Assembly: GCA_026002305.1 (NCBI GenBank)
Contig: BOBI01000007.1
Coordinates: forward strand, 1-29,950
Source of the DNA: Spirochaetia bacterium
Lineage (GTDB): Bacteria > Spirochaetota > Spirochaetia > Treponematales > Breznakiellaceae
DNA length: 29,950 nucleotides
Reading direction: 5' to 3'
A program made the position numbers and the translations under genes. Every line of letters begins with the position of its first letter. Position 1 is the first letter of the stretch. The notes under the pieces are model-generated. The model was not told the origin of the DNA. It did not search any database and was given only the letters and a program-made list of their open reading frames with translations. Below, piece by piece: positions 2,483 through 22,296 of the stretch.

Positions 2483-2686
2483 TTTATTCTCCGTGCGGTT
2501 TAATACCGTCTGCACGCTACGCACCTGCTTGCGTGCGAGGGCTCTGCGGCGGTTCTTCTAAAGCGGTAGTAAACCGCACACGTACAATCACTTCCTATAG
2601 AACGACAGCTTTGGTTTTGTATACATTCATAAGATTGGAACAAAAACAAAGCTGATACCGCGCTGCTCTGCGGCGCGGTAGTTCAT
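2483..2686 (+). repeat. Composite structured repeat, copy A
   Basis: Order of parts: left edge TTTATTCTCCGTGCGG (from 2483); outer stem GTGCGGTTTA (2493-2502) pairing with TAAACCGCAC (2570-2579); conserved tail ACGTACAATCACTTCCTATA (2580-2599); second hairpin CAGCTTTGGTTTTGT (2606-2620) with ACAAAAACAAAGCTG (2639-2653); third hairpin ACCGCGC (2657-2663) with GCGCGGT (2673-2679); right edge GGTAGTTCAT. Positions 2483-2570 are identical to 22205-22292. The parts recur in copy B with different but still complementary stems. Confidence 0.85.
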
Positions 2687-2711
2687 TAGGATATACTTAG
2701 TATATCCTAAT
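2685..2711. promoter_or_regulatory. 27-bp perfect palindrome
   Basis: ATTAGGATATAC (2685-2696) is followed by TTA and then its exact complement GTATATCCTAAT (2700-2711). Perfect 12-bp arms with a 3-nt centre suggest a protein-binding operator or a small hairpin. It begins at the right edge of repeat copy A. No T-tract follows, so it is unlikely to be a terminator. Confidence 0.6.
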
Positions 2712-2854
2712 TCTATCATAGGGTCAAGAGTTTTTCTCTTTCTCAGAAATTCTGAATTTGGCACTAAATTCTGCTAAATTATCGGGCACTTTTGCCACAT
2801 GCTTCCCTATTTGGCTCGTAAGCCTGTTAAATATGTCCCCTTCCATCCTTCTAT

Positions 2855-3312
2855 TTTATTGTCCGTGTTTTGGTTTAATACCGCGCAGCTTGCTGCGCTC
2901 TTCGGCGTTAAACCAAAACACACGTACAATCATTTCCTATACAAGAGAGTATAACATTTAAGAACAAAGAAAAACTGCGAAAGCAGTTTCCCCCATTCGT
3001 ACCAGTTAACCCGAACAAATGTATCCACCACAGCTTTTTGAAAAAAAGCTGATACCGCGTGGCTTGCCCTAAACTTGACCCACAATTTTAGTTCTGTAAA
3101 CGCGCTCGATTTTTTTTGGCGAAATTCAGGTAATTTCAACCAATCTGGAAACCAAAAAGCATCAAATTCTTCCTGAAATGATGAAAATATCTGTTTATCC
3201 ACCTGTACAAGGTCAAAAATTCTGAATCACCTGACAATTTTTTAACATTTTTTAGCACATTGGGGAAACATAGAATTTTGTGGGGCAAGTTTAGGGCTTG
3301 CCGCGCGGTAGT
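2855..3312 (+). repeat. Composite structured repeat, copy B (interrupted)
   Basis: Same order as copy A but with changed stems. Left edge TTTATTGTCCGTG (2855); outer stem GTGTTTTGGTTTAA (2865-2878) pairing perfectly with TTAAACCAAAACAC (2908-2921); inner hairpin GCGCAGC-TT-GCTGCGC (2883-2898); tail ACGTACAATCATTTCCTATA (2922-2941, one mismatch to copy A); second hairpin CAGCTTTTT (3031-3039) with AAAAAGCTG (3043-3051); third hairpin starting ACCGCG (3054) that is split by the insertion at 3067-3296; right edge CGCGGTAGTTCAT (ends about 3316). Confidence 0.82.
3067..3296. mobile_element. MITE-like insertion of about 230 bp with 4-bp target duplication
   Basis: The left end CCCTAAACTTGACCCACAA and the right end, read on the other strand, CCCTAAACTTGCCCCACAA agree at 18 of 19 positions. 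CTTG occurs immediately outside both ends (3063-3066 and 3297-3300), as expected for a target-site duplication. Removing the element and one CTTG gives ACCGCGTGGCTTGCCGCGCGGT, a proper hairpin aligned with copy A of the surrounding repeat. The interior contains no intact gene, so it would need a transposase in trans. I cannot assign the family. Confidence 0.75.
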
Positions 3313-3360
3313 TCATCATGGATTTTGAAACTTTGAATTGCTGTGAGGCGTTGCGGTGGG

Positions 3361-3390
3361 TTGACATTAATGGTTTTCCTCTGGTAGATT
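3361..3390 (+). promoter_or_regulatory. Sigma-70-type promoter for tRNA-Glu
   Basis: TTGACA at 3361-3366, an 18-nt spacer, and TAGATT at 3385-3390. The expected start point is about 5 nt before the tRNA gene at 3402. This is the best match to a housekeeping promoter in the window. Confidence 0.6.
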
Positions 3391-3401
3391 TGTATTTGTA
3401 G

Positions 3402-3473
3402 GTCTCCTTCGTCTAGTGGTTAGGACACCGGGTTTTCATCCCGACAACGGGGGTTCGACTCCCCCAGGAGATG
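3402..3473 (+). tRNA. tRNA-Glu (anticodon TTC)
   Basis: A 72-nt cloverleaf. The acceptor stem GTCTCCT (3402-3408) pairs with AGGAGAT (3466-3472, one G-T pair) and the discriminator base is G3473. The D arm includes CTAGTGGTTAGGACA. The anticodon stem CGGG/CCCG encloses the loop with TTC. The T arm GGGGGTTCGACTCCCCC is canonical. CCA is not encoded. It stands alone, with a promoter upstream and a strong terminator 5 nt downstream, so it is probably a single-gene transcript. Confidence 0.95.
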
Positions 3474-3477
3474 TCTT

Positions 3478-3515
3478 AAACCGCGCCGTCTTGCATAAAG
3501 CGGCGCGGTTTTTTA
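3478..3515 (+). terminator. Rho-independent terminator after tRNA-Glu
   Basis: AAACCGCGCCG (3478-3488) and CGGCGCGGTTT form an 11-bp GC-rich stem with a 12-nt loop, followed by TTTTT. The 3' side runs into TTTATTGTCCG, the left edge of the structured repeat, so the terminator looks built from that family. It may also stop convergent transcription of the minus-strand gene ending at 3531, although the T-tract on that side is short. Confidence 0.85.
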
Positions 3516-3530
3516 TTGTCCGTATTTGGT

Positions 3531-4781
3531 TCAATTTTTACGTTTGAAAGCGGCTTTAATAACATCGGGCACATAACTTAATACAAAAGCTATAGGCAAA
3601 AGGAGCGCAAGCGTAACCTTATTATCTTGGTAAAACATTGGCAATAATTTTAATACCATTGTAAGAATACCGCCTAACAATATGCAGGTCATGAATATTT
3701 TTAAGAGTTTTTCGCACAATAGTCTTTTTTGTTCTTTCTTTGTAAAAGCGATAATTATACCCAACGGGACGGCAGCAAAGAATAGCGGGTTTACAAAAAT
3801 AACATTCAAGTTATGCCATGTATAATCATGGTCTGTAAATAACGACATAAAGAATGCCGCTGTTCCCATAAAGCCAAAGAACAAACCAAAGATACCAATG
3901 CTTAAACCAAACAATCTATTTACGGTTTTTATATTTTTCAAAAATATAAAAACCGTAAATATTAGTGCTATAGAAATCCCTAAAATTAAACCCGCAGGCC
4001 AATTTTCACGTGGGGAGGGCAGAACCGGTGGTCTGTCTTTAGATGTGTATATAATTTCTACATTGCTAACCAACGGCTGCTTCTGTCCGGTTTTGTCTAT
4101 ATACGAAAAGTTATTTATTTGTATTCCGGCTTCGGAGGGTAAAAACATTTCCTGTTTTACAGTAGTGAGGGTATCAATGCCTTGCCCCATAAGAAAATTT
4201 ATTAACCAATCACCAAATGGATCAAAATAGGAATGACGCCTAACGTGCTGTCTTAATGTAAAACGTCCGGGTGTGTTATTAGCCATCTCATAAAATTGTC
4301 CATCAACAGCATCGTCAATAAGATTAGTAATTCGCGTAACACAATTATCTGAAAAATGATTATACAGATAATCTTTATATTCAGGTGTTATATTACGTTC
4401 CGCAACACGAACAATTTCCGCTTTTTGATCCGATGTCAAATTTAAGGTGTATATAGTTACATCGCGGTTATCCGCAATATAATGAGATATAACGTTATTT
4501 GTACTTGAAACAACGCTGCTGAACCACAAACGTCCCATAGCGAAGTTAGTAAAAAAATTTTCTTTTTCAAATGAAAAAACACCATAGTCATAAAATCGTG
4601 ATGTACCTGTAAGTTTGTCTTCGATAATTAAACCAAAATGTCCCCACCAAAAGTATAGTTCGTTGCCGGGCCCTATTACGGCAATCTTGATGGTGATATA
4701 GTCGTATCTGTTTTTTGTTTCTTGTGCATTAAGATTGTAGAATGACAAGCATAACAAGATTAAAATGAATAATTTTTTCAA
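3531..4781 (-). CDS. DUF4105 / Lnb N-terminal periplasmic domain membrane protein
   Basis: A 416-residue protein with a TTG start (4779-4781) preceded by GAGG 8 nt upstream. A signal peptide (MKKLFILILLCLSFYNLNAQ) is followed by an exported domain with the family hallmarks: LYFWWGHFGLIIED with its histidine, and HFSDNCVTRITNLIDD with the cysteine of an NlpC/P60-like fold. From about residue 260, five hydrophobic segments anchor it in the inner membrane. The family is related to the N-terminal part of lacto-N-biosidase-type proteins; its biochemical role is unclear, and an amidase or peptidase activity would be an inference. It is the last gene of the minus-strand pot cluster, 20 nt downstream of the metallo-hydrolase gene. 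An unusually long perfect palindrome (3917-3961) lies within the coding region of the first membrane segment. Confidence 0.75.
   Translation of the reverse strand: MKKLFILILLCLSFYNLNAQETKNRYDYITIKIAVIGPGNELYFWWGHFGLIIEDKLTGTSRFYDYGVFSFEKENFFTNFAMGRLWFSSVVSSTNNVISHYIADNRDVTIYTLNLTSDQKAEIVRVAERNITPEYKDYLYNHFSDNCVTRITNLIDDAVDGQFYEMANNTPGRFTLRQHVRRHSYFDPFGDWLINFLMGQGIDTLTTVKQEMFLPSEAGIQINNFSYIDKTGQKQPLVSNVEIIYTSKDRPPVLPSPRENWPAGLILGISIALIFTVFIFLKNIKTVNRLFGLSIGIFGLFFGFMGTAAFFMSLFTDHDYTWHNLNVIFVNPLFFAAVPLGIIIAFTKKEQKRLLCEKLLKIFMTCILLGGILTMVLKLLPMFYQDNKVTLALLLPIAFVLSYVPDVIKAAFKRKN
3917..3961. repeat. 45-bp perfect palindrome inside a coding region
   Basis: Left arm 3917-3938 (starting TATTTACGG) and right arm 3940-3961 (ending CCGTAAATA) are fully complementary around a single central base at 3939. 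It lies in the DUF4105 gene and encodes FTVFIFLKNIKTV in frame. In mRNA it would form a 20-odd-bp stem, AU-rich near the tip. Confidence 0.85.
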
Positions 4782-18501: not shown

Positions 18502-20979
18502 ATGAAATATATAAACCTAAAAGATTTTGACTCATCCTTGTTGACTGTTGAAAAACCATCAAGATATGTTGGCGGTGAATATGGCCGGCTTGCCAAACCG
18601 CAGGCTTTGCTGCAAACCGTAATATCGTTTCCGGACTTATATGAAATAGGAATGTCCAACCAGGCATTACATATTCTATATAACAGGATAAACAAATTAC
18701 CGGATATTTCCTGTGATCGTGTATTTGCTCCGGCGCCTGATTTTGAAAAATTAATTAAGGAAAAAAAAATACCGCTATACGGACTTGATACAGGTATTCC
18801 ATTATGTTCCGCAGATATTCTGCTTTTTACGTTTGGTTATGAGCTTGGAATTAACGGCATCCTTACCATATTAGATTCGGCGGATGTTCCGATTTTATCG
18901 TGTAATCGTAATAATAAACATCCTATCGTTATCGCAGGCGGCCCTTGTGTTTCTAACCCTATACCATATTCAAATTTTATTGATGCTTTTTGGATTGGAG
19001 AAGCTGAAGATGAGTTTTTTATTTTACTGGAAACGCTCTGCAATTTAAAGCAAAAAGGGGCCGGTAAAAAAGAACTGTTTGATAAAATTTCCGAACATAA
19101 ATCTATCTGGGTAAAAGGAAAGGATAAATCCATAAAGAATATTGATGAAAATTTTTCTGAACGTCCAGCTGCAAATAATGTTTTTCCTCTACCAAGTATG
19201 AGAATTGTTCAGCATCATGGCGCGGTTGAAATTATGCGGGGTTGTCCGAACGGATGCAGATTTTGCCATGCCGGAATTTGGTATCGGCCAATGCGTCAGA
19301 AAAAACTTGAGACTATTAAATCGGAAGTATCAAATTTTATAAATATTGGCGGCTTCAGGGAGATTAGCCTTTCCTCACTATCGTCAGGCGACTATTCTAA
19401 CATCGTCCAACTTTTAGAGGAATTAAATAACGAACATTCAAAGAAACATATATCGTTTCAATTACCATCATTACATATTTCAACTTTTTCATTGGATATT
19501 CTAAAGAAAATATCAACAATTAGAAAAAGCGGATTAACCTTTGCGGTAGAAACACCATTAGATATGTGGCAATTAGCTATAAACAAACAAATTACCCTTT
19601 CAAATATAAGGGAAATAATACTGGAGGCCAAAAAAAACGGCTGGCGTACAGCAAAGTTTTATTTTATGATAGGGCTTCCAATAATTTGCGAAAATTACAA
19701 TATTGATGAACCAAAAGAAATAATTTCATTTATACAGGAACTGTCAAGAGCATCAGGATTAAAATTTAATATAAATGTCGGATTATTTATTCCAAAACCG
19801 CATACACCATACCAATGGGCAAAACAGTTGTCTATGGAAGAAGCGTTTAATAAATTATGGGAAATTAAAGAAGGTTTAAGAAAAAGCGGACATAAGGTGA
19901 GTTTTCAGGATACCCTTGTTTCAACAATAGAAGGATTGTTAGCCAGAGGCGATAATAGGGTAGGGGACTTGATCGAAGAGTCTTTCAAAGCCGGCTGCCG
20001 TTTGGATGCGTGGAATGAGTATATTAATAAAGATGTTTGGAAGACACTATTAGAAAAATATGACTACGTTTTAAAAGATGTTCTAAAAGAAAAAAATGTC
20101 AATGATCATCTTCCATGGGATTGCATAGATACGATAACAACAAAGTCATTTCTAAAAAAAGAATTAAATCTATCAAATAATAATAAATTAACCACCGCTT
20201 GTGAAGAAAACTGCAAGAATAATTGCGGTGTTTGTTCAAACAAAAGGACAATTAAGAAAAATAAAGATGTTATAACGCAAATTAAAAGTACAAGAAATGT
20301 TGAAAATACTGAAATTACTGATGATACCAAAGATCCGGATACAAACCGAATTTTATTTTCTTTTGTAAAGAAAAGCACAGCCATTTATATTTCACATTTA
20401 AGTATAATTGAGATTTTCTCAATGGCGTTCCAACGCGCAAGTATTCCTGTGGTTTGGACACAAGGCTATAATCCGTTACCAAAACTTGATTTTGCCTCGC
20501 CCGTATCCATTGGCATTGTTACCCGGAATGAAATCGCCTCCATAGATATATCAGGGTTTATTGATGTCCACGAATTTAAAAACAATCTAAATAAGTATTT
20601 ACCGGATGGAATGGAGATCGTTCATGCCGAGCTTTATCATATAAAACAAGGCCAAAAAAAATACTCGCCCGCGTCGCTGCTTTGGGGGTTTGAATATGAA
20701 ACAGCGAATGGCACAGATATAGTGCCAAAAGACGAGGAAAAGCAATACAAAAAAAGCATTATAGATAATGGCGATTCGCCTCTATCTATAAAGAGAAAAT
20801 ACCTTCTGGCGAAGGTATTAAACCAAAACACGGACAATAAACATGGCGGCGGTTTTTTTGATATAAGGAATAAAACAGACGAAAAGACAGAAGTACAATA
20901 CGATAGTTTTTTTAATGTCTACAAAAACATATATCAAAATAAAGAAACTTCTAATCCAAGTAGACAGAATACACATTAA
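18502..20979 (+). CDS. B12-binding-type radical SAM protein fused to DUF2344 domain (TIGR03960-TIGR03936 type)
   Basis: An 825-residue protein starting one base after the rodA stop. The N-terminal ~230 residues match the TIGR03960 B12-binding-like region (PSRYVGGEYG, ISFPDLYEIGMSN, IVIAGGPC). The radical SAM core carries the 4Fe-4S motif C248-x3-C252-x2-C255 in MRGCPNGCRFCHAGIWYRP. A cysteine cluster C567-x3-C571-x3-C575-x2-C578 links to a C-terminal DUF2344/TIGR03936 domain (from about residue 615: ILFSFVKKSTAIYISHL, PLPKLDFASPVSIG). The two parts are often separate neighbouring genes; here they are one chain. The reaction is unknown; RNA modification is a guess. The last ~50 residues (from about 771) are encoded by repeat and spacer DNA and are unlikely to belong to a conserved domain. 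Confidence 0.87.
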   Translation: MKYINLKDFDSSLLTVEKPSRYVGGEYGRLAKPQALLQTVISFPDLYEIGMSNQALHILYNRINKLPDISCDRVFAPAPDFEKLIKEKKIPLYGLDTGIPLCSADILLFTFGYELGINGILTILDSADVPILSCNRNNKHPIVIAGGPCVSNPIPYSNFIDAFWIGEAEDEFFILLETLCNLKQKGAGKKELFDKISEHKSIWVKGKDKSIKNIDENFSERPAANNVFPLPSMRIVQHHGAVEIMRGCPNGCRFCHAGIWYRPMRQKKLETIKSEVSNFINIGGFREISLSSLSSGDYSNIVQLLEELNNEHSKKHISFQLPSLHISTFSLDILKKISTIRKSGLTFAVETPLDMWQLAINKQITLSNIREIILEAKKNGWRTAKFYFMIGLPIICENYNIDEPKEIISFIQELSRASGLKFNINVGLFIPKPHTPYQWAKQLSMEEAFNKLWEIKEGLRKSGHKVSFQDTLVSTIEGLLARGDNRVGDLIEESFKAGCRLDAWNEYINKDVWKTLLEKYDYVLKDVLKEKNVNDHLPWDCIDTITTKSFLKKELNLSNNNKLTTACEENCKNNCGVCSNKRTIKKNKDVITQIKSTRNVENTEITDDTKDPDTNRILFSFVKKSTAIYISHLSIIEIFSMAFQRASIPVVWTQGYNPLPKLDFASPVSIGIVTRNEIASIDISGFIDVHEFKNNLNKYLPDGMEIVHAELYHIKQGQKKYSPASLLWGFEYETANGTDIVPKDEEKQYKKSIIDNGDSPLSIKRKYLLAKVLNQNTDNKHGGGFFDIRNKTDEKTEVQYDSFFNVYKNIYQNKETSNPSRQNTH
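20814..20864 (-). repeat. Structured-repeat fragment inside the radical SAM coding region
   Basis: Positions 20814-20841 are the exact reverse complement of 2855-2882, 28 bp beginning GGTATTAAACC and ending GGACAATAAA. The following GGCGGCGGTTTT...GATAT is shared with the copy at about 21093-21113. It is read in frame as part of the protein tail (residues about 771-788). Confidence 0.8.
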
Positions 20980-21022
20980 AGAAAGTAAAAAGCCGCAAGC
21001 GCGTTTTGTTTCGTGCAGATTG

Positions 21023-21115
21023 GTATTAAACCGCAAGGAGGATGACCTACCCGCGTAAGCAGAGCTACGCGGTATTAAACCGCACGGAGAATAAACGGCG
21101 GCGGTTTTGATATGC
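21023..21115 (-). repeat. Structured repeat copy between convergent genes
   Basis: Read on the minus strand it runs TTTATTCTCCGTGCGG (complement of 21079-21094), then TTTAATA, a hairpin CCGCGTA/TACGCGG (21051-21057 with 21066-21072, 8-nt loop), and GGGTAGGTCATCC. A second GGTATTAAACCGC block lies at 21022-21034. The left edge is identical to copies at 2483 and 22205. With the converging radical SAM and lipoprotein genes on each side, it may help terminate transcription, but no T-rich tail follows. Confidence 0.75.
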
Positions 21116-22204: not shown

Positions 22205-22296
22205 TTTATTCTCCGTGCGGTTTAATACCGTCTGCACGCTACGCACCTGCTTGCGTGCGAGGGCTCTGCGGCGGTTCTTCTAAAGCGGTAGTTCAT
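22205..22296 (+). repeat. Structured repeat copy F (88 bp identical to 2483-2570)
   Basis: Bases 22205-22292 equal 2483-2570 with no mismatch, and the next bases TCAT complete the right edge GGTAGTTCAT seen at the ends of copies A and B. An internal hairpin GCACGC/GCGTGC is present. The element occupies most of the 107-bp gap between the TPR gene and the lipoprotein gene. Its TCA (22293-22295) is the TGA stop of the TPR gene. Confidence 0.92.

Follow-up and report, generated by a model that had tools for sequence, protein, structure and literature searches.

Palindromic repeats of a Breznakiellaceae genome as probable transposase-less relatives of IS200/IS605 elements, with predicted guide and cleavage-site letters that change together

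Two structured repeats (copies A and B), located on contig BOBI01000007.1 of a Spirochaetia bacterium (assembly GCA_026002305.1; Treponematales, Breznakiellaceae), are very probably non-autonomous elements of the IS200/IS605 kind, termed palindrome-associated transposable elements (PATEs), that would be moved by a TnpA protein acting in trans. The window, that is, the whole 29,950-nucleotide stretch that was analyzed, is contig C7 of a 2.23-Mb genome that is 64.5% complete. The classification draws, at the level of sequence comparison, on the ends of the elements, their insertion site, the lack of a duplication at one empty site, the pairing and concerted change of predicted guides and cleavage sites, and the presence in related genomes of IS200 tnpA genes bounded by the same ends. 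A preliminary description of this DNA knew of no described family that fits the repeats; their anatomy nevertheless matches that of PATEs, which are transposase-less relatives of IS200/IS605, and among the options which that description offered, a non-autonomous element that needs folding for its movement is the one backed by the evidence.

In the proposed mechanism, the Y1 (HUH) TnpA would come in trans from an IS200-type element and bind both hairpins, left and right, on the same DNA strand, and the cleavage sites (TTAT in the left flank and TCAT at the right end) would be selected by pairing with the guides AATA on the left and GATA on the right. The element would then leave the donor site in single-stranded form and integrate 3' of another TTAT, with no duplication of the target. 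From the features described below we infer that the elements are mobilized in trans, that they move by the single-strand route and that they have been active recently. The kind of element is already known, and this particular family appears to be undescribed. Among the open-access papers listed (by title and start of abstract) for repeats in treponemes or spirochaetes, for PATEs and for IS200-derived MITEs, none describes it, and PMC10969869 contains no occurrence of IS200, IS605 or PATE. The elements explain a class of hairpin repeats that is widespread in the bacterial family.

Copies, ends and insertion sites

Copies A and B were found where they had first been placed, the former at 2484-2686 (including its TTAT target) and the latter at 2856-3316; the place originally given for copy B was right but its end was not, since the copy runs four bases past 3312. 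The two copies are homologous, the three stems reported for them are present in both, and each sequence folds far more stably than its dinucleotide shuffles (z of -8.15 for copy A and -7.63 for copy B). The third stem of copy B, described earlier as differing but still pairing, is really split by a nested 226-bp insertion (3069-3294), and in uninterrupted copies (for example L039, L045 and L047) that stem reads ACCGCGTGGCTTGCCGCGCGGT. The region 3317-3530, which lies within the range first given for the family, is no further copy and consists of tRNA-Glu (3402-3473) and a hairpin after the tRNA, with only a left-end fragment of the family. The suggestion of a terminator or attenuator family was not borne out: promoter-like and terminator-like sites between 2300 and 3600 were not above shuffles, with one terminator-like site against 1.7 expected. 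A 90-aa open reading frame on the minus strand (2930-3202), which overlaps copy B and the nested element, gave no Pfam match. Beside copy A, on the minus strand at 1879-2462, lies a gene pair for a MazE-like antitoxin and a PemK/MazF-like toxin (Pfam 1.5e-12 and 1.8e-30).

Table 1. Positions of the repeat copies and their parts in the window.
Feature	Position	Strand	Evidence
Left cleavage/target site CL of copy A, TTAT, in the flank	2484..2487	+	TTAT in 27/31 own copies, linker-anchored
Copy A, PATE-like element, 199 bp; right cleavage site TCAT at 2683-2686	2488..2686	+	
Copy A outer stem P1 (GTGCGGTTTAATACCG / CGGTAGTAAACCGCAC) around the left-end hairpin; left guide GL AATA at 2502-2505	2493..2579	+	inverted repeat, fold
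Copy A conserved linker ACGTACAATCACTTCCTATA	2580..2599	+	44 genome matches vs 0 in control; related linkers in relatives by eye
Copy A hairpin P2	2606..2654	+	fold
Copy A right guide GR GATA (2654-2657) and right-end hairpin ACCGCGCTGCTCTGCGGCGCGGT	2654..2679	+	
Left cleavage/target site CL of copy B, TTAT	2856..2859	+	
Copy B, PATE-like element, 457 bp; 223 bp minus the nested insertion and its duplication	2860..3316	+	
Copy B outer stem P1 (GTGTTTTGGTTTAA / TTAAACCAAAACAC) with left-end hairpin; GL AATA at 2877-2880	2865..2921	+	inverted repeat, fold
Copy B conserved linker	2922..2941	+	genome 20-mer matches
Copy B hairpin P2 (CAGCTTTTT / AAAAAGCTG)	3031..3051	+	fold
Copy B right guide GATA (3051-3054) and right-end hairpin, split by the nested element	3051..3312	+	
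Nested 226-bp transposase-less IS4/Tn5-type element, ends CTAAACTTGACCCACAA, in the loop of the copy B right hairpin	3069..3294	.	
8-bp duplication GGCTTGCC (the hairpin loop) flanking the nested element	3061-3068 and 3295-3302		
Left-end fragment (TTTTATTGTCCGTATTTGG), 3' of tRNA-Glu	~3511..3529	+	direct repeat
Third window copy, short form: TTAT 22206-22209, element 22210-22296	22206..22296	+	
Left end, degenerate short copy; low bound approximate	21000..21094	-	
Left end, degenerate; low bound approximate	20760..20840	-	

The family is abundant in its own genome. Copy A gave at least 75 blastn pieces (40 of 120 candidates having been scored), and the 20-mer of the shared linker (ACGTACAATCAYTTCCTATA), searched with up to three mismatches, gave 44 matches against none for the reversed control. 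A script run over the loci located at least 50 left ends, 41 of them with a right end. Counted from the target TAT, the sizes of the elements are stepped, with forms of 78-90 bp that carry one hairpin and longer forms of 142-143, 173-174, 202-203, 225-227 and 256-287 bp; copies that harbor a nested insertion measure 376-460 bp, and those without nesting cover the whole range of 78-287 bp. Copies of the same type are near-identical. The elements lack terminal inverted repeats (they begin with TGTCC and end with GGTAGTTCAT), and palindromes lie near both termini.

The left flank (CL) reads TTAT in 49 of 50 copies and CTAT in one, the right end (CR) reads TTCAT in 40 of 41 and TTCTT in one, and a T follows the right end in 29 of 41. 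The left guide (GL), 5' of the GC-rich left hairpin, is AATA in 41/41 copies; the right guide (GR), 5' of the likewise GC-rich right hairpin, is GATA in 29 of 30 two-hairpin copies and GGTA in the other, with 11 of the 41 copies (five nested, six single-hairpin) giving no right guide. These end counts bear only on the letters that the search expression left free, as it held TATT and TTTAAT[AG] on the left and GTTC[AT]T on the right. Because the expression itself held most of the end letters, the ends were recounted from the linker with fuzzy matching, and among 31 copies so anchored CL was TTAT in 27, TTAA in two and CTAT in one (no left match in one), and CR was TTCAT in 25, TTCTT in one and TCCAT in one (no right match in four).

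That insertion leaves the target unduplicated was read from one exact empty site and one restored signal peptide. On contig C129, a reverse-transcriptase gene (PF00078) is split by a family member bearing the nested element (L074). When the left flank through TTAT is joined to the base after TTCAT (...GIY/LLGKSKRR..., the slash marking the junction), an alignment of the rejoined protein with 119 homologues needs no inserted column where the two halves meet, from which it follows that no target base was duplicated; one homologue is gapped within four residues of the junction. The closest named homologue, from a Treponema sp., shares 66% identity, which makes a treponeme-like spirochaete the likely host. 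On contig C79, a lipoprotein signal peptide reappears when the flanks are joined in this way. A frame test over the 41 copies (frames of at least 100 aa) did not single out the boundary, giving 13 for a shift of 0, 13 for -2, 13 for +1, 8 for -1 and 9 for +2, probably because most copies sit between genes. One copy (C39:8821) carries a direct repeat of about 18 nt on both flanks, perhaps a tandem repeat that the target already contained; it was rejected as a target duplication, as no such repeat was seen, by eye, beside the other listed copies.

This anatomy corresponds to that of the PATEs of Haloquadratum walsbyi, which, in the available part of their description (PMC3119063), have near-terminal palindromes and a non-coding length, lack both terminal inverted repeats and target duplications, have ends resembling those of IS200/IS605-type transposons, and are themselves targeted by other small mobile elements. 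All of these features recur here, including the ends shared with IS200/IS605-type elements and the attack by small elements. The same source derives short PATE forms from deletion of the core between two palindromes, and the single-hairpin forms of 78-90 bp resemble these. Unlike the Haloquadratum elements, the present family resides in a bacterium, the partners seen are of IS200 type (tnpA only), and part of the family possesses a conserved linker and a long outer stem whose pairing takes in the left guide.

Guides and cleavage sites across related genomes

In IS608 of Helicobacter pylori, as set out in the accessible portion of PMC5934647, the cleavage sites are read through base pairs with a tetranucleotide located 5' of each hairpin and not by TnpA, the letters being GL AAAG with CL TTAC and GR GAAT with CR TCAA, and the pairs including A+16:T-3 and A+17:T-4. 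Restated, guide base 1 pairs with site base 2 and guide base 2 with site base 1, and the AATA/TTAT (left) and GATA/TCAT (right) letters of the present genome pair at those same positions at both ends. A third pair of IS608 joins guide base 4 to site base 4, and these bases likewise pair in the own-genome elements. The resemblance extends to end hairpins on the same strand, to cleavage chosen by 5' tetranucleotide guides, and to insertion 3' of a TTAN site that stays in the left flank, in so far as the same part of PMC5934647 describes them. The family differs from IS608 in lacking a transposase gene, in its letters (TTAT/AATA and TCAT/GATA), and in the three matched right-end states found among relatives.

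Those states emerged from two right-end patterns (the hairpin followed by TTNAT, with guide base 1 open to A, C or G), which occur in 83 and 45 of 195 genomes of the bacterial family, the own genome included, with none for the reversed control. The patterns leave open exactly the two positions at issue, guide base 1 and site base 2. Among the two-hairpin matches listed, 62 of 65 right ends in 48 genomes pair, against a shuffle mean of 29.0, and none of 100,000 shuffles reaches 62; the count is by locus, and related elements are not independent. The 65 comprise GATA/TCAT (37), AATA/TTAT (19), CATA/TGAT (6) and three mismatched ends. On the left, where the expression admits only A or C at guide base 1 and T, G or C at site base 2, 31 of 34 ends pair (21 as AATA/TTAT and 10 as CATA/TGAT), the exceptions being L099 (one of two) and L182, in both of which the left end may have been misassigned, and L217. 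The own locus (L156) was left out of these counts for the relatives. Ten single-hairpin right ends were kept separate, and 65 of all 75 pair when they are pooled; the left guide of the single-hairpin elements of relatives pairs in 7 of 10 (not in L177, L199 or L221).

As judged from these alignments of letters, the predicted guide and cleavage site change together at both ends and in several matched states. It is at this pair that the compensatory change claimed for the family at the outset is strong. For the guide/cleavage-site code of single-strand transposons, the family offers naturally occurring data that need no laboratory redesign and span three matched states on the right, two on the left, and dozens of related genomes. 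Within the open-access titles and abstract beginnings listed for guide/cleavage covariation in IS200, none describes the repeat family.

The outer stem and its linker

In part of the family only, an outer stem (P1) surrounds the left-end hairpin and the conserved linker is present. The 16-nt arm that ends in the guide plus CC forms 14.1 of 16 pairs with the 3' arm of the same element and 11.0 with foreign arms, as calculated over 17 elements of the own genome and relatives that remained from 23 after removal of L168, L173 and L212, in which the ungapped window missed or mispaired the 3' arm, and of three near-duplicates from the own genome. The fraction of P1 cells that are paired is 0.88, against 0.70 in shuffles (0/2000 reach 0.88), and further pair types number 27 against 21.1 (13/2000 reach 27). 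Guide base 1 forms an A-T pair within P1 in some elements and a C-G pair in others. Positions with change on both sides amount to nine, against a shuffle mean of 7.6, a value that 269 of 2000 shuffles reach. The original proposal of compensatory change in this stem is sustained with respect to pairing with the own partner, which exceeds shuffles, but not with respect to two-sided change, which does not clearly do so.

That last result, together with the near-identity of same-type copies within the own genome, is compatible with an origin of the matching changes in P1 and P2 by palindrome correction, in which template switching at hairpins would keep the arms alike with no selection for folding. 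We regard this as a serious contender for the stems, although we lean somewhat against it; it leaves the co-change of guide and cleavage site unexplained, as these do not lie in one stem.

The linker (ACGTACAATCAYTTCCTATA in the own genome, and for example AGTATAATAAATTTCCTATCCAACGAAG in relatives) accompanies P1, by eye, in many such elements. By eye again, many elements contain TAYAAT within it (at 2580-2599 in copy A, for example), which resembles a -10 box. A search with the exact linker pattern over genome contigs yielded two matches, in Emticicia and Chitinophaga, which were taken as chance for a degenerate 20-mer.

These features also bear on the idea that the fold is kept for RNA, with P1, the linker, P2 and the right hairpin forming a processed or regulatory RNA that is mobile only incidentally. 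The better pairing of P1 with its own than with foreign partners in the 17 elements, the recurrence of the linker with its -10-like motif in relatives, and a comparison with the 5' tnpA RNA of IS200, a source of structured small RNA according to the available part of PMC12594629, would agree with it. On the other side, tRNA-Glu is the sole match in an Rfam search of the window at the gathering score, the promoter-like and terminator-like sites described above do not exceed shuffles, and only 11 of the 34 two-hairpin elements from relatives (L156 left out) form 12 or more of the 13 P1 pairs, while 15 form at least 11. We consider such an RNA unlikely.

Since P1 includes the left guide, pairing of the guide with the cleavage site and pairing within P1 are mutually exclusive on one strand. 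One conceivable consequence, which we put forward as doubtful, is that P1 acts as a built-in switch, in which its pairing would hide the left guide and permit excision or targeting only once the stem is opened; such opening may be brought about, for instance, when the conserved linker is bound or when the stem is transcribed through. If true, these elements would represent a self-regulated, guide-sequestering subtype of single-strand transposition that tracks changes of the guide, and would add a form of self-control beyond those described in the consulted portions of the cited work.

Transposases of relatives and the nested element

No Y1 transposase (PF01797) was found in the own genome, itself 64.5% complete, and such genes are present in 119 of 195 genomes of the bacterial family. 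Without a Y1 gene in the own genome the family cannot be called an IS, a point that leaves the naming as PATEs unaffected. In relatives, IS200-class loci have the structure TTAT-T...GGTTTAATACC-hairpin...tnpA...GATACC-hairpin-TTCAT, and five IS200-type elements of 581-583 bp were recovered with both ends. The best preserved of the five is L125, because three have reading frames of at most 126 aa and L166 is without the first histidine of the HUH motif. The TnpA of L125 matches the NCBIfam model transpos_IS200 (NF033573) at 3.7e-39, identifying it as IS200/IS605-type, and that of L166 matched, in a PDB search, the ISHp608 transposase (4e-10) and other transposase chains, some of which we take to be those of ISDra2. 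In none of the five is P1 pairing above shuffles or a linker match present, so that none of them represents a full-length parent of the P1 type. Another IS200 group in the bacterial family has unrelated hairpins. An involvement of omegaRNA and TnpB (IS605 with tnpB) was rejected, PF07282 being absent from the own genome and present in 18 of 195 family genomes.

The many copies, palindromic units and single-hairpin forms would also suit REP or REPIN-type elements moved by RAYT (TnpA_REP), and relatives do possess such genes, as all four weaker-class Y1 proteins tested match REP_Tyr_transpos over its cut-off. The available text on REP/BIME and TnpA_REP (PMC8266576) likewise describes palindromic repeats used by a Y1 enzyme, with a tetranucleotide at the foot of the hairpin. 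In that text, however, REPs carry GTAG and are cleaved at CT, whereas here GTAG is absent from the 5' foot and the letters are AATA, GATA or CATA, changing with the site. Moreover, NATACC-type hairpin ends lie beside the gene in none of 14 weaker-class Y1 loci (four of them typed), in contrast to the IS200-class loci, which have them, and against the REP model the TnpA of the matching IS200 elements scores below cut-off. Movement by a RAYT is accordingly very improbable, and mobilization of the family by an IS200-type TnpA remains the preferred reading.

The element nested in copy B illustrates that a second mobile element uses the hairpin loops of these PATEs as landing sites. All six copies found in the own genome (the one at 3069-3294 of the window and others among loci L156-L162) sit in loops of family hairpins; both orientations and several types of host copy are represented, and the duplications measure 8 or 9 bp. 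A seventh match, on contig C33, is a 21-bp end only and also abuts a hairpin of the family. In relatives, most matches are a 21-23 bp end alone, and 22 of 195 genomes (own included) have a match. At L256, two such ends enclose a gene for an IS4/Tn5-type transposase (NF033590, 1.1e-101; Tnp_DNA_bind and Tn5 dimerisation domains), and at L162 a reading frame beside an end of this type presumably resembles an IS110-type transposase. A comparable habit is that of ISRm22 of Sinorhizobium meliloti, an IS4-type element inserted at the axis of REPs; in the part of PMC1525189 available to us, this holds for 10/10 insertions in the table, and the text gives nine copies, six with perfect direct repeats. 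The nested element resembles it in being IS4-type and in sitting within palindromic repeats, and differs from it (6-bp duplications) in its length of 226 bp, its lack of a transposase, its 8-9 bp duplications and its placement in PATE hairpin loops.

In size and copy number the family would also suit ordinary MITEs, which a DDE transposase moves and which have terminal inverted repeats and a target duplication. Copy B does contain both features, but as those of the nested element; the ends of the family members without inverted repeats and the exact empty site without duplication already contradict this explanation, to which we attach practically no probability.

Elsewhere in the window, three direct repeats of 184 nt with a spacing of 201 nt lie within one open reading frame at 1-586, and a perfect 22-nt inverted repeat with a 1-nt loop is found at 3917-3961, within a gene for an Lnb_N-domain protein.
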